64,000 nt of DNA from Pontibacterium granulatum (lineage in GTDB: Bacteria; Pseudomonadota; Gammaproteobacteria; Pseudomonadales; Balneatricaceae), in assembly GCF_029961155.1 (NCBI RefSeq), contig NZ_JASBRH010000002.1:1-64000 (forward strand), written 5' to 3'. Both the position numbers and the translations under genes were made by a program. Positions 24,878 to 30,326 of the stretch are shown here, in pieces. Numbering within the stretch: position 1 is the first letter of the stretch; each line of letters opens with the position of its first letter. The notes beneath the pieces were generated by a model. It did not search any database and was not told where the DNA came from. It saw only the letters and a program-made list of their open reading frames with translations.

Positions 24878-26638
24878 TTATTCTGCAGGCATGTTCTGCT
24901 CGCTATAAGCGTATGCTGCCGGCACAAACACATTAATAGCAACGCCCTCGTTATCACTACCCGGGCCAATACTCAGGGTGGCATTCATGTAATCTGCCCG
25001 CTCCTGAATGCTCATCAATCCAAAACCACCCCGTGTGGCTTCTTTCTTCAACGAGCTGGGTAAGCCTACGCCATCGTCCTCGATGATCAGCCGGACTCCC
25101 TGCAACTCATCTTTAAGCTTGATAGTGACCAGGGTGCCTTCGGCGTGTTTCATAATGTTGGTCAGGGCTTCCTGGGTGATGCGGTACAGATTGGACTTAA
25201 TCTCGTCCTTCAACGGTTTTTCCTGCTCCAGTTCCATCAATACACCGTAGTCCTGCATCTCAAGCTGTTTGATGGTAGGTATTTTAGGAATGCTGACACT
25301 CAGGCCGAAGTCATTCATCTCGAACGGACGCAGAGACTCAATCCGGTTGTAGACCTTGTCGTACATCAGGTTGATGATGTTAAGGCACTCACTGACGGTT
25401 TCCTTCGAAGTTTCTTCGTGCATCAACTGATCCTTCAGGGTGATCAGGTTGATATGCACCACCGCCAGCAGCTGGCTCATGTCGTCGTGCAGGTCATTGG
25501 AGATGCGTGATCGTTCATGCTCCTGCGAGCTAATCAGGTGGTGCAGGATACGGCGTTTGTCTTCGTTGATGGCGATCAGTTTGCTGTTGGTGCGCTCCAG
25601 CATCTCTTCTTTCTGCTTTAGGTCGCGCATGATCTGCACAATCTCTTCGCCGATTGCGTTAAAGTCGGAGATATTGGTGCGTCGCCAGGTGGTGCGCTTG
25701 TCGGCGTGCGCCTTACGGGCAAACAGGATCAGTGACTGCAGCTGGGTATCGACGGAGCTGGAGAGGGTGAATGCGATCGCCAGGGAGATCAGCAGGGCTA
25801 CCACACAGCCAAAGATCATGGTTTCCCAGAACTGCAGGCGCAGGTCCTGGCTGACATCATTGTCCGGGTAAAACTGAATTTTGAAGTTGTCCCCCAACAC
25901 CGTATCACCCAAGGACGTCACTACCTTATCGTCCTGCTCCATCGCCAGCAGGGTGGTTAGCCAATTGTCCTGGCGGGTGCTGGGATATTCCACCGTGCTT
26001 ATCGGTTGGTTGTCGTACTGAAAACTGATTTTGCGCAGGCTATTCTGGTCGTAGAAGGAGAGTTTCTCCAGCAGGTACTGGTTATCGGAGAGTTTGACAC
26101 CGCCAGCCAGCTGGCCGATCACCTTGCCTGAACTTTTGATATCAAGATTGATAGTGTACACGCCCAGCAGGGTGTCTTTAATCTGCAGGGTATTCCAGCC
26201 GTAGCTGTCCAGCCCGCCGTTCTGGACGATTAGCTCGTCACAGGAAAGGTGGTGCAGCTTGGTGAAATAGCCGGTAAACAGGAAGCAGCGATTGGTGTCA
26301 TGAAAGGCGACCGCGATGAAGTCGTAGCGAACCTTTTCGAACTCTTCTTCCCAGGCTGACAAGGTGGCAAGAAAGTTGGCCTGATCACCCCGGTAGAAGG
26401 ATTCGATCATACGCTCGTTGGAGCGGATGGTCAGCAGATTGTCCTCCACGCCATCCAGGTAGGTGCGTAAACTTTCCTCCAGGCGAAATGACAGGGCGTG
26501 GTTGTGAGAGTCCACCTGTTTGCCGATGATCTCCCGCGATTCATAGAAGATATTGACTAGAAATGAGACGAGGAAGGTAAAGGTTGCCAGCAACAGCAAC
26601 AGGAAGGTGATCGTTTTAAACCGCAGGTTGGCGCGCAT
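24878..26638 (-). CDS. NarL-type sensor kinase paired with LuxP-like receptor
   Basis: A 586-residue inner-membrane histidine kinase. TM1 (about 9-31), a roughly 240-residue periplasmic region, TM2 (about 271-292) and a HAMP-like linker (293-345) have the layout of LuxQ; the linker (VDTQLQSLILFARKA and SDFNAIGEEI) resembles LuxQ by eye. The output is different: a HisKA_3 domain with phosphoacceptor H384 (SNDLHDDMSQLLA) and a short HATPase (N-box ALTNIMKHA, DDGVGLP, GGFGLMSI), with no receiver. It starts 13 bp after the LuxP-like gene ends, so they form an operon. The cognate NarL/FixJ-type regulator is not in the window. Confidence 0.88.
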   Translation of the reverse strand: MRANLRFKTITFLLLLLATFTFLVSFLVNIFYESREIIGKQVDSHNHALSFRLEESLRTYLDGVEDNLLTIRSNERMIESFYRGDQANFLATLSAWEEEFEKVRYDFIAVAFHDTNRCFLFTGYFTKLHHLSCDELIVQNGGLDSYGWNTLQIKDTLLGVYTINLDIKSSGKVIGQLAGGVKLSDNQYLLEKLSFYDQNSLRKISFQYDNQPISTVEYPSTRQDNWLTTLLAMEQDDKVVTSLGDTVLGDNFKIQFYPDNDVSQDLRLQFWETMIFGCVVALLISLAIAFTLSSSVDTQLQSLILFARKAHADKRTTWRRTNISDFNAIGEEIVQIMRDLKQKEEMLERTNSKLIAINEDKRRILHHLISSQEHERSRISNDLHDDMSQLLAVVHINLITLKDQLMHEETSKETVSECLNIINLMYDKVYNRIESLRPFEMNDFGLSVSIPKIPTIKQLEMQDYGVLMELEQEKPLKDEIKSNLYRITQEALTNIMKHAEGTLVTIKLKDELQGVRLIIEDDGVGLPSSLKKEATRGGFGLMSIQERADYMNATLSIGPGSDNEGVAINVFVPAAYAYSEQNMPAE

Positions 26639-26651
26639 AGTGGGGCCGTGT

Positions 26652-27785
26652 TCACAAATCCTTGTTGGAGTATCGGAAAGCCTGGCTTTCCATCCGTTTT
26701 ATCTCATCCAGCGACATACTCTCATCCAGTATAGTGAAGTCTCCCGAGAAGATCAGAGGTACGGGCTTACCTTCAAGGTCGCGCTTGATCGCTTCCGCCA
26801 TGGAGATGCCGTTGGCGTCATTCATGCGCATCAGCACTACCTTAAGGTTGCCGTTGACCAGTTCCTGGATCTCCTCGGAGCCCCCGCCCCAGCCATTGGC
26901 GATGATGTCCTGGCGATCGGTTTCGCGCAGGGCGTCCAGCGCACCAATGGCGGTATCGGTCCCACAGGCATAGATATATTTGATATGCGGTGTCTCCTGC
27001 AGAATCTGCAAGGTGGCCTTGTAGCCGCCCTCACGGTTGGAGTTGGCGTAATAACTGGCCTGCAGGTCATGGTAGTCGCCGATCTCGCGGATGAAGGTCA
27101 GACCACGCATCTCGCTGACCAGGCCTTTATTGCGGAACAGTACGGCGTAGGGGGTGCCTCGTGGCATGCGTTGCCTGAAGTACTGTGCCAGTCGCTTGGC
27201 GCCCTCGGCATGGTCAAAACCGCTGTACATAAACGGCTGACGGTTACCCCAGTCCTTGATTGGGGTGGTGATGTTCTGCAGGATCAGTTTGATATTAGTG
27301 CCGCGTATCAGGCGTTCCACCATCGCTTTCTGACGGGCCGAATCCAGAGTGTAGACCAGATAGTCCGGATTCCACTCCAGCATCTCCTCGATCTGGGCGA
27401 GTTGTTTGGAGATCTCGCTGAACGGCTTGGTGTAACGGGTTTGCAGCTCGTAATTGATGCCCAGTTCATCCATTCGCAAGGCAAAGGAGCGTACACTGCG
27501 CAGCCAGTAACCGGAGTATTGGATGGAGGGGTAGATGATGCCGATCTTGATCTTCTTGTTGGGTTTTGCCAGTGGCACCGATTCGCTGCGTACGGCAGCA
27601 ATCAGTTCAGCCGAGGCGTACTGTTGCTCCGGATGTTCTGCATAGTATTCGTCATACATCCAGTAATCGGCCAGTTTCCCGGCCCAGACATTGCCGCTAA
27701 AAGTAATGAGTAGGGGGGCCAGCAGTGCGGCGCAACGGCTTAAATAGGTGCGAAAAGGGAGGCTGTAAGGGTGATGCTCGGGCAT
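26652..27785 (-). CDS. luxP: LuxP-like periplasmic AI-2-binding protein
   Basis: A 377-residue periplasmic binding protein strikingly close to Vibrio LuxP, the receptor for the borated autoinducer AI-2. A signal peptide ends at VWA. Counting from a TTG three codons upstream, the residues aligned with LuxP ligand contacts are Q92, S94, W97 (IQYSGYW), N174 (QNITTP), R230 (SEMRG), T279, D280 (GTDTAIG), W302 (NGWGGG) and R323 (MRMND), corresponding to Q77, S79, W82, N159, R215, T266, D267, W289 and R310. I chose the ATG at 27785. It is co-directional with the downstream sensor kinase. luxS is not in this window. Confidence 0.9.
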   Translation of the reverse strand: MPEHHPYSLPFRTYLSRCAALLAPLLITFSGNVWAGKLADYWMYDEYYAEHPEQQYASAELIAAVRSESVPLAKPNKKIKIGIIYPSIQYSGYWLRSVRSFALRMDELGINYELQTRYTKPFSEISKQLAQIEEMLEWNPDYLVYTLDSARQKAMVERLIRGTNIKLILQNITTPIKDWGNRQPFMYSGFDHAEGAKRLAQYFRQRMPRGTPYAVLFRNKGLVSEMRGLTFIREIGDYHDLQASYYANSNREGGYKATLQILQETPHIKYIYACGTDTAIGALDALRETDRQDIIANGWGGGSEEIQELVNGNLKVVLMRMNDANGISMAEAIKRDLEGKPVPLIFSGDFTILDESMSLDEIKRMESQAFRYSNKDL

Positions 27786-27804
27786 GGTGTGCAAGCCTGC
27801 TCAG

Positions 27805-27950: not shown

Positions 27951-29132
27951 TTAAGCTCGCAACTCTTCTTCCACATGGGTGGCGATCATCGCCTCTTCGT
28001 CTGTTGGGATCACGCGTACCACGATCGTTGAATTCTGGGTGCTGATGACAGGTGCGCCGCGGTCATTGGCCTTTTTATCGATCTCTATACCCAACCAACC
28101 ACAACGGTCCAGCACGCGCTGGCGCAGGTTGGCATCGTTCTCACCGATGCCGCCCGTGAATACCAGTTGCTGCAGGCCTTCCAGCGCTGCAGTCAGGCGA
28201 CCCGCCTCCAGGGCGATGCGGTAGGCGAACATGTCGATTGCCTCTTCGGCGTGTGGGTGATCCGCCTGATGCAGTTCCTGCATGTCGGAGCTGATGCCGG
28301 ATACGCCCAACAGTCCACTCTCCTTGTTGATCAGAGTTTCCAGCGCATCGAGATCCATATTGTAATGGCGTGCCAGGTAGATCAGCACACCCGGGTCGAT
28401 GTTTCCGCAGCGGCTGCCCATCGGCAGTCCGTCGACCGCAGTAAAGCCCATGCTGGATGCGATTGACCGACCGGCCTTTACCGCACACATGCTGGCGCCG
28501 GCACCCAGGTGGCAGATCACGGTATTCAGGTTGCCACTGTCCAGTTGGGTCAGCTGGCGCTGAATATACTCATAGGATAAACCGTGGAAGCCGTAGCGGT
28601 GCACACCGTCTTCAGTGAAACGGCGTGGTATTGCATAACTACGCTCCATTTTCGGCTGGCCGACGTGGAACATGGTGTCGAAGCAGGCGATCTGTGGCAG
28701 CGACGGTTCCAGAATCTGGCAAGCACGGATCAGCTTCAGATTGTACGGCTGGTGCAGCGGCGCCAGCGGCACATACTGCTCCAGCGCCATCAGCAGTTGG
28801 GAATTGACCCGCATTGGGCTACTGAACTGGTCTCCGCCGTGCACCACACGGTGACCAAAGGCGATCAGCTCACTCTTTGGGACATTCTTACCAATCCAGG
28901 TCAGTACATGCTGCAGGGCGGCCTGGTGACGGTTGTCGCGGAATGCCGCAGACAGATCCAGATCACCGTTTTCGATCAATTCTCCGCCACCGTTGATGAT
29001 CTTGCAGCGGGCATTACCGAGGATATTGCTCAGCTTAAGGGTGAACAGGCCTTTAAGTCCGCTTTTATCCTGGGCGAACAGAGCGCATTTAAGGCTGGAA
29101 GAACCGCCATTGACGGTCAGTACCGTCTTCAT
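27951..29132 (-). CDS. ackA: Acetate kinase
   Basis: AckA interconverts acetyl phosphate + ADP and acetate + ATP. The 393-residue protein has TVNGGSSSLK (N8), HRVVHGG (R95), FDTMFH (D152) and RYGFHGLS (H184). In the normally HLGNG adenosine/phosphate motif it reads CHLGAGAS, so the Asn at position 211 is Ala. The short-Pta partner immediately upstream overlaps by 4 bp, giving a pta-ackA operon for acetate metabolism and acetyl-phosphate supply. A terminator follows. Confidence 0.93.
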   Translation of the reverse strand: MKTVLTVNGGSSSLKCALFAQDKSGLKGLFTLKLSNILGNARCKIINGGGELIENGDLDLSAAFRDNRHQAALQHVLTWIGKNVPKSELIAFGHRVVHGGDQFSSPMRVNSQLLMALEQYVPLAPLHQPYNLKLIRACQILEPSLPQIACFDTMFHVGQPKMERSYAIPRRFTEDGVHRYGFHGLSYEYIQRQLTQLDSGNLNTVICHLGAGASMCAVKAGRSIASSMGFTAVDGLPMGSRCGNIDPGVLIYLARHYNMDLDALETLINKESGLLGVSGISSDMQELHQADHPHAEEAIDMFAYRIALEAGRLTAALEGLQQLVFTGGIGENDANLRQRVLDRCGWLGIEIDKKANDRGAPVISTQNSTIVVRVIPTDEEAMIATHVEEELRA

Positions 29133-30073
29133 TCCTCAATACCGTTTGGGTGCAGAACTATGTGTGATGCCAGGGCGCAGGAGGCCAGGCGGCCCAGCGT
29201 TTTCTCGGATCGGCTGGTGAGGATGATTGGTACCTTGGCACCTAGCGCGATCCCTGCTGCTTTTGCGTCGGCCAGGTAAACCAGCTGCTTGGCGATCATG
29301 TTGGCGGATTCCAGATCGGGCGCCAGCAGGATATCGGCATCACCGGACACCACCGACTTGATGTGTTTGTCGATGGCGGCTTGCTGGGAGATCGCATTAT
29401 CGAACGCCAGCGGGCCATCCAGAATGCCGCCACGGATCTGTTCGCGGTCAGCCATTTTGCAGAGCGCTGCCGCATCAATGGTGCTCTGAATCGCCGGTTT
29501 CACTTTCTCTACCGCAGACAGAATTGCCACTTTGGGTACATCCACACCCAGCGCATGGCAGAAATCGATGGCGTTCTGGGTGATATCACGCTTGGTCATC
29601 AGGTCGGGCGCGATGTTGATGGCTGCGTCGGTGATGATCAGTGGTTTGTGGTAGTTCGGCACGTCAAACACAAACACATGGCTGAGACGGCGTTCTGTGC
29701 GGATTCCCTTGGTTTTGTGCACCACAGCACTCAACAGTTCGGCCGTTGCTAAATTGCCTTTCATCAAGGCACTGGCGTCAGCAGTGCGAATAAGATTGCA
29801 GGAATGTTCGGCTGCTGCATGGCTGTGCGGAACGTCGATGATTTCGTATGGGGTGATGTCGAGATTGTTTTCGTCGGCAGCGGCTTGGATTTTGCCTTCC
29901 GGACCCACTAAAATTGGCTGGATCAGACCTCGCTCGGCCGCTTCAACAGCGCCCACCAAGCTATTGTGATCGACAGGGTGAACAACGACAGTACGAATTG
30001 GAGTGGCTTTGATCGCCTGCTCGATAAAGAACTCCAACTGATCGTGAAGGGGAGGTTTCTCTTTAATGATCAT
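29129..30073 (-). CDS. pta: Short phosphate acetyltransferase (PTA_PTB family)
   Basis: A 314-residue phosphate acetyl/butyryltransferase comprising only the catalytic domain; E. coli Pta is about 714 residues with extra N-terminal domains. It transfers acetyl between CoA and phosphate. Visible segments include LMKGNLATAELLSAVV, ITDAAINIAPDL and GGILDGPLAFDNAIS, typical of the PTA_PTB fold. I prefer the ATG at 30073 because AAGGAA lies nine bases before it; an ATG at 30091 has no such site. The overlap with ackA supports acetate rather than butyrate as substrate. Confidence 0.88.
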   Translation of the reverse strand: MIIKEKPPLHDQLEFFIEQAIKATPIRTVVVHPVDHNSLVGAVEAAERGLIQPILVGPEGKIQAAADENNLDITPYEIIDVPHSHAAAEHSCNLIRTADASALMKGNLATAELLSAVVHKTKGIRTERRLSHVFVFDVPNYHKPLIITDAAINIAPDLMTKRDITQNAIDFCHALGVDVPKVAILSAVEKVKPAIQSTIDAAALCKMADREQIRGGILDGPLAFDNAISQQAAIDKHIKSVVSGDADILLAPDLESANMIAKQLVYLADAKAAGIALGAKVPIILTSRSEKTLGRLASCALASHIVLHPNGIEE

Positions 30074-30326
30074 CGTACGTTTTTCCTTCATATTGGGAAT
30101 CGATGTTTGCGTTTCCCGTTATGCCAGCGTCTATGGGTATTTGACTCTAAAGATACGTTAACTCTGTGAAATCATTATGACGCAGTGCAGCATTGAGAAC
30201 TATAGATATGTATCAGAGGGCTTAACTTCTGAGTAAGCCTGCCGAAAACACCACTTATTAGATTAGTAAGCTTATAACTTTGTTCTACACTCAAGCGGAT
30301 AACTTTTTATTGAGGGAGTGTTCTTG

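Follow-up and report, generated by a model that had tools for sequence, protein, structure and literature searches.

How might an autoinducer-2 (AI-2) receptor of the Vibrio type be coupled to a histidine kinase that carries no receiver domain? The question is raised by a gene pair in the first 64,000 nucleotides of contig NZ_JASBRH010000002.1 of Pontibacterium granulatum (assembly GCF_029961155.1; this whole stretch is called the window), in which luxP is directly followed by a kinase gene. The pair is LuxPQ-like on the outside and a NarL-class kinase on the inside. We favour, with a probability of roughly 0.62, the explanation that an AI-2 receptor of the LuxPQ type has here had its transmitter replaced, and would pass phosphate in one step to a NarL-class regulator encoded elsewhere.

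Vibrio LuxP chains (4yp9, 1zhh, 1jx6 and 2hj9) were the best matches of the window LuxP in the PDB, with E values of 3e-103 to 9e-103 over residues 41-377, whereas the next family, the ribose-type binding proteins, began only at 1.7e-9; the similarity to Vibrio LuxP is thus near full-length and far above that to other sugar-binding proteins. The open reading frame spans 26652-27794 on the minus strand and opens with a TTG at 27794, although the likely start is the ATG of residue 4, at 27785. We take the AI-2 contacts of V. harveyi LuxP to be Q77, S79, W82, N159, R215, T266, D267, W289 and R310, in a numbering whose offsets were verified against the PDB sequence. All nine (QSWNRTDWR) are the same in the window protein, at Q92, S94, W97, N174, R230, T279, D280, W302 and R323 in 380-residue numbering, in agreement with a first-pass annotation of this DNA, which had described a LuxP with every contact retained. 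By every sequence feature checked the protein is a LuxP, and AI-2 is its predicted ligand.

The same annotation had the adjacent kinase ending in HisKA_3 and HATPase domains around H384, with no receiver or phosphorelay, and this architecture was confirmed. Pfam placed HisKA_3 at residues 375-438 (E 3.3e-7; 31.2 bits, cut-off 24) and HATPase_c behind it (E 1.8e-9; 38.5 bits, cut-off 26.4), and returned no Response_reg or Hpt match at E <= 0.1; hydrophobic stretches beginning near residues 10 and 274 fit the two transmembrane passes that had been proposed. A HAMP linker, also proposed, had no Pfam match at the same threshold, although a divergent one is possible. H384 opens an H-[DE]-x-x-x-Q motif (HDDMSQ, ending at Q389), in which the DxxxQ is presumably the HisKA_3 phosphatase motif. 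H384, D385, Q389, N494, D521, G523 and G525 were invariant in an alignment of seven kinases, and an LHD box was found in all 27 HisKA_3 kinases paired with LuxP. The nearest NCBIfam models of the transmitter were MctS (110.7 bits against a cut-off of 700) and UhpB, with scores far below all curated cut-offs, and the LuxQ model was absent from the matches at E <= 0.1. Lacking the receiver of a hybrid kinase, the protein is not a LuxQ.

A model of the whole kinase was modest, with a predicted template modelling (pTM) score of 0.44, and reliance was placed on that of the periplasmic domain only, for which AlphaFold gave a pTM of 0.84 and a predicted local distance difference test (pLDDT) score of 86. 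When this model was searched with Foldseek, the top six matches were all LuxQ (E 8e-10 to 3e-8), followed by a sporulation kinase at 1e-5. Alignment with VIA-align gave five LuxQ entries Z scores of 17.6-18.1 at 2.9-3.3 Å, against 12.6 for the best other sensor; the domain therefore models as the LuxQ-like sensor that had been suggested. A profile of the 27 LuxP-paired kinases retrieved three LuxQ sequences from the PDB (5.5e-19, 2.9e-8 and 9.5e-6) and nothing else below 0.2, and the Pfam LuxQ-periplasm model matched nine of these 27 kinases. Two cysteines, at residues 118 and 133 of the window kinase, are nearly invariant in the 27 sensors and possibly form a disulfide.

Table. Positions of the LuxP-kinase pair and its domains in the window
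Feature	Position	Strand	Basis
luxP, periplasmic AI-2 binding protein (binding predicted)	26652..27785	(-)	phmmer to Vibrio LuxP; Peripla_BP_4; 9/9 AI-2 residues
LuxQ-sensor HisKA_3 histidine kinase, 586 residues	24878..26638	(-)	start 13 bases past the luxP stop
First transmembrane stretch, residues ~10-28	26555..26611	(-)	hydropathy maximum; helix in model
LuxQ-like periplasmic sensor domain, residues 30-264	25847..26551	(-)	AlphaFold model, Foldseek, VIA-align, 27-sequence profile
Second transmembrane stretch, residues ~274-292	25763..25819	(-)	hydropathy maximum; helix in model
HisKA_3 dimerisation/phosphoacceptor domain	25325..25516	(-)	Pfam; H384 at 25487-25489, motif HDDMSQ
HATPase_c catalytic domain, residues 482-573	24920..25195	(-)	Pfam; N494, D521, G523, G525, G538 and G540 invariant in a seven-sequence alignment

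To place the pair among its relatives, 116 genomes of the window's family were searched for LuxP at a threshold of E <= 1e-30; the gene downstream within 300 bp was taken as the partner and classed by phmmer against reference domains. LuxP was present at 58 places in 48 genomes and 11 of the 16 genera. At 27 of these places, the window included, it is paired with a HisKA_3 kinase, and the pair thus recurs in 27 genomes of seven genera (g1, g2, g4, g6, g123, g126 and g127); at 23 the partner is a GGDEF-EAL protein. Three places fall in a HisKA/hybrid class (L035 and L177, each with two receiver stretches, and L162), one has a HisKA kinase without receiver (L173), and four have no called partner (L163, L183, L185 and L167); LuxQ-like hybrids are few among the 58. 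Pfam was run on part of the partners, and among those scanned LuxQ-periplasm was joined to a HisKA_3 output (L036, L184, L191, L194 and L195), a GGDEF-EAL output (L026, L040, L166 and L186), a hybrid output (L035 and L177) or a HisKA output (L162 and L173); it was missed in the window kinase, in L032 and in the HisKA kinases of two loci from other families (L037 and L039). That the receptor cassette has several outputs in the window's family is the larger result.

The nine AI-2 residues were intact in 26 of the 27 LuxPs of the HisKA_3 class, in all 23 of the GGDEF-EAL class, in two of three of the HisKA/hybrid class and in three of four of a PAS-HisKA class. None of the four LuxP-like proteins that make up class D41 retains them, nor do L167, L196 and L197; their conservation is thus not automatic across the superfamily. 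On a LuxP tree built by a quick method, from which L041-L044 were excluded, the HisKA_3 label takes three changes, at least two of them forced by well-supported branches, and the window LuxP sits in an all-HisKA_3 clade of 14 (97% by the Shimodaira-Hasegawa-like approximate likelihood-ratio test). Among named members, Marinobacterium halophilum, M. weihaiense, Neptunomonas marina and Motiliproteus sp. SC1-56 carry LuxP-bearing loci (4 of the 80 returned). In the wider class, LuxP was found in four of 369 evenly drawn genomes, that of P. granulatum included; the surroundings of the other three were viewed by script only, and they enter no count of partners.

Some of these loci have features of their own. 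At L163 a kinase and an EAL protein lie upstream of luxP in place of a downstream partner, and L162:6937-12151 presents a row of LuxP, a HisKA kinase with the LuxQ periplasmic domain, a stand-alone receiver protein and a receiver-GGDEF-EAL protein. In L183:5970-6917, from a genome (G386) of the window's own genus, LuxP is followed by a 315-residue LuxQ-periplasm protein without output domain, a broken or incomplete gene. Two genomes of genus g123 have, behind the LuxP kinase, a gene for a diguanylate cyclase of SBP_bac_3-GGDEF architecture (L151:5915-7468 and L152:3158-4786), where a third shows just a 144-residue GGDEF piece (L150:9876-10310); as the response regulator of the kinase, this protein was ruled out in L151 and L152 by having no receiver domain. 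A more distant cluster, in one genus of another family (L041:5906-11316 and L042-L044), encodes a LuxP-like protein of 28-30% identity that has lost the AI-2 residues, and then a protein of about 860 residues; in L041 the latter has only a weak LuxQ-periplasm match (E 0.0048), and behind it comes a PNP_UDP_1 nucleosidase, which is what Pfs is too. This arrangement resembles the Marinomonas MED121 cluster in the part of PMC2561040 that we consulted, and may sense a different product of the methyl cycle.

The synthase gene luxS is present in the P. granulatum genome, and altogether 25 of the 27 genomes that carry the HisKA_3 pair have it, the two exceptions being 86% and 89% complete; it was found in 14 of 21 genomes whose LuxP has only another partner and in 30 of 68 without LuxP, counts which, like those for regulators below, ignore relatedness. 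The seven LuxP genomes of genus g7 are without luxS, and LuxP may serve eavesdropping there.

P. granulatum also carries a second LuxP, 44% identical to the first, on contig C13 (L026:5562-9533), directly followed by a 902-residue LuxQ-periplasm-PAS-GGDEF-EAL protein in which the GGDEF and EAL motifs are legible, and this pair may place cyclic diguanylate (c-di-GMP) under direct AI-2 control. Given the two pairs in one genome, AI-2 probably acts on gene expression and on c-di-GMP side by side. At a distance of 2 kb upstream of the second LuxP is a GerE-type regulator (L026:2881-3516) in which, by eye, the receiver is missing its usual phosphoacceptor.

We reasoned that signalling through the window pair would proceed as follows. 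AI-2, probably in its borated form, would be bound by LuxP in the periplasm, and LuxP would dock on the tandem-PAS, LuxQ-like sensor of the kinase. Ligand binding would then switch the transmitter from kinase to phosphatase activity or back, as suggested by analogy with Vibrio LuxQ and by the DxxxQ motif after H384. A single transfer would carry the phosphate to a NarL-class response regulator whose gene lies elsewhere, with no receiver/HPt relay to LuxO; both the LuxP-kinase complex and this target are inferred. A broader proposition seems to us evenly poised: that in this marine family LuxP and the LuxQ periplasmic domain form a swappable AI-2 co-receptor cassette, to which HisKA_3, GGDEF-EAL, HisKA and hybrid outputs may be attached, and that P. 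granulatum splits the signal into transcriptional and c-di-GMP branches without LuxU or LuxO.

HisKA_3 kinases normally phosphorylate NarL-type regulators, and such a regulator lay within 300 bp in 68 of 76 HisKA_3 loci without LuxP, as found with a kinase alignment. The P. granulatum genome has 15 GerE matches, of which those on C21, C73, C28, C11, C10, C4 and C66:104973 have receivers that look complete by eye. The NarL on C21 lies beside a PilJ HisKA_3 kinase, the MctR-like regulator on C73 is paired, its neighbours being a HisKA_3 kinase with an sCache sensor and a TAXI gene of the TRAP type, the ErdR-like regulator on C11 adjoins a NahK/ErcS-type hybrid, and the FixJ-like regulators on C4 and C66:104973 are beside kinases. 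The GacA-like regulator on C10 occurs in 103 of the 116 family genomes and is uninformative. A second ErdR-like regulator, on C28, had no kinase gene recognised within the 8 kb examined; such an orphan was found in 26 of the 27 pair genomes, and the one genome without it is 86% complete. GerE proteins on C55, C27, C13, C5:28607 and C66:217209 are degenerate by eye and remain as candidates, the last with a weak VpsT-like receiver match. Two HisKA_3 kinases in the genome have no neighbouring regulator, that of the window and a CHASE kinase on C2, and elimination therefore singles out no one regulator.

Several observations weigh against the proposed circuit. Binding of AI-2 is predicted from residues, and single deviations among these occur in L161 (D267), itself a HisKA_3 pair, in L035 (R215) and in L173 (Q77). 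The window sensor has just 12-17% identity to LuxQ and escapes the Pfam model, and a profile of the 14 sequences nearest to it ranks LuxQ first, yet with an E value of 0.02. No LuxO-family protein of P. granulatum passed the curated cut-off (best match 377.5 bits against 800), as a circuit without LuxO would have it, but that cut-off had no positive control, none of 14 control genomes exceeding it and no Vibrio being among the control names seen; LuxU was not searched for. On the output side, a search of the 300 bp around each of the 27 LuxP kinases found no NarL-type regulator. The window was searched through its GerE matches, and phmmer with three regulators of P. granulatum served for the remaining 26 loci, one of which, L191, ends about 500 bases past the kinase; the first-pass claim of direct control over a NarL/FixJ-type regulator found no adjoining partner to sustain it. 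The orphan NarL-type regulator that the annotation suggested seeking has a candidate in the ErdR-like protein on C28, but it is not specific to the pair, since 34 of the 68 genomes without LuxP also have one. The MctR-like regulator is absent from 7 of the 27 pair genomes, and G313 retains the pair without it. With no regulator found adjacent, one candidate unspecific and the other missing from some pair genomes, we conclude that the regulator gene probably acts in trans; the ErdR-like and MctR-like proteins are unproven candidates outside the locus, and transfer to a NarL-type regulator is the likeliest output, though still a proposed one.

The MctR-like protein is also central to the first alternative, which we consider unlikely: that the pair senses AI-2 and its kinase feeds the MctR-like regulator of another kinase, that of a TRAP transporter system, so that AI-2 would modulate carboxylate uptake. 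In genus g2 (two genomes named Marinobacterium) this regulator lies a few kb from the pair; in seven of eight g2 genomes the LuxP kinase is followed on the same strand by a trio of TRAP-sized genes, and then by a HisKA_3 kinase and the MctR-like regulator. At L032, the one locus of these scanned with Pfam, DctP, DctQ and the sCache HisKA_3 kinase were identified, and the third gene, outside the scan, is presumed to be DctM. MctS as the nearest model of the window transmitter, and the regulator's setting on C73 beside the sCache kinase and TRAP TAXI gene, point the same way. Against this, the regulator adjoins a kinase of its own, is found in only 20 of the 27 pair genomes (in G313 the whole block is missing), and occurs in 20 of the 21 genomes whose LuxP has only another partner.

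It is rather improbable that the ligand of this LuxP is not AI-2 but another furanose or a pentose, and that the system is an ordinary sugar sensor of LuxP descent. LuxP is kin to the ribose-type binding proteins, and distant LuxP-like proteins with other residues do exist (L041-L044, L167, L196 and L197), but the contacts are conserved in all but one of the pair LuxPs, nearly all pair genomes have luxS, and no ABC transporter gene was recognised among the four flanking genes scanned. That decay has left here an idle or broken LuxPQ remnant with no working output, as the missing adjacent regulators and the truncated protein of G386 might suggest, is very improbable in view of the invariant kinase residues, the LHD box in every paired kinase and the persistence of the pair across seven genera. 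Upstream of luxP, and in the same orientation, lie genes for an acetate/propionate kinase and a phosphotransacylase (window 27951-30091).

If LuxP works here as in the AI-2 circuit that we favour, LuxP-type perception of AI-2 would be wider than Vibrio and its output modular, including one-step control of transcription and direct c-di-GMP turnover in marine bacteria that mostly have luxS. The 27 natural kinase partners would be material for work on the way in which a LuxQ sensor is driven by LuxP when no hybrid relay is attached.

The first-pass annotation knew of no described system of this kind, and a search of the open-access literature, which leaves most subscription journals outside, found no description of a LuxP paired with either a HisKA_3 kinase or a GGDEF-EAL protein. 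Its claim of novelty has to be narrowed, however: the part of PMC2561040 (2008) that we consulted already notes, for the marine gammaproteobacteria Neptuniibacter caesariensis MED92 and Marinomonas MED121, LuxP homologs whose neighbours are PAS-domain proteins other than LuxQ. Those strains are described there as without luxS, and no HisKA_3 partner is mentioned in that part, whereas the window's genome has luxS. In the sections consulted of other papers, LuxP-type sensing appears as a Vibrio circuit that runs through LuxQ and LuxU and has LuxO and small RNAs as its end point (PMC12834153), LuxQ is treated as a hybrid kinase (PMC8895600), LuxQ-periplasm is listed as a Cache family of 115 sequences (PMC4822843), and 267 LuxP proteins are counted, with AI-2 binding reported for three and LuxP portrayed as serving transport (PMC12268683).

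Periplasmic binding proteins act as co-receptors for membrane signalling proteins in NspS-MbaA and TorT-TorS as well, with other ligands and other output domains. AsrK-AsrR of V. furnissii, as far as the consulted part of PMC11796354 describes it, is likewise a two-component system other than LuxPQ-LuxUO that is governed by AI-2; it operates without LuxP, AsrK binding AI-2 directly through a dCache_1 domain, and its regulator AsrR is a c-di-GMP phosphodiesterase. The window kinase shares HisKA_3 and HATPase_c domains with NarX/NarQ, UhpB and MctS, and differs from them in its LuxQ-type sensor beside LuxP and in having no NarL-type regulator found adjacent to it. With Vibrio LuxP-LuxQ the pair shares a LuxP with nine contacts, a LuxQ-fold sensor, adjacent genes and luxS in the genome; unlike Vibrio LuxQ, a HisKA-HATPase-receiver hybrid that acts through LuxU and LuxO, its kinase is a HisKA_3-HATPase protein without receiver.

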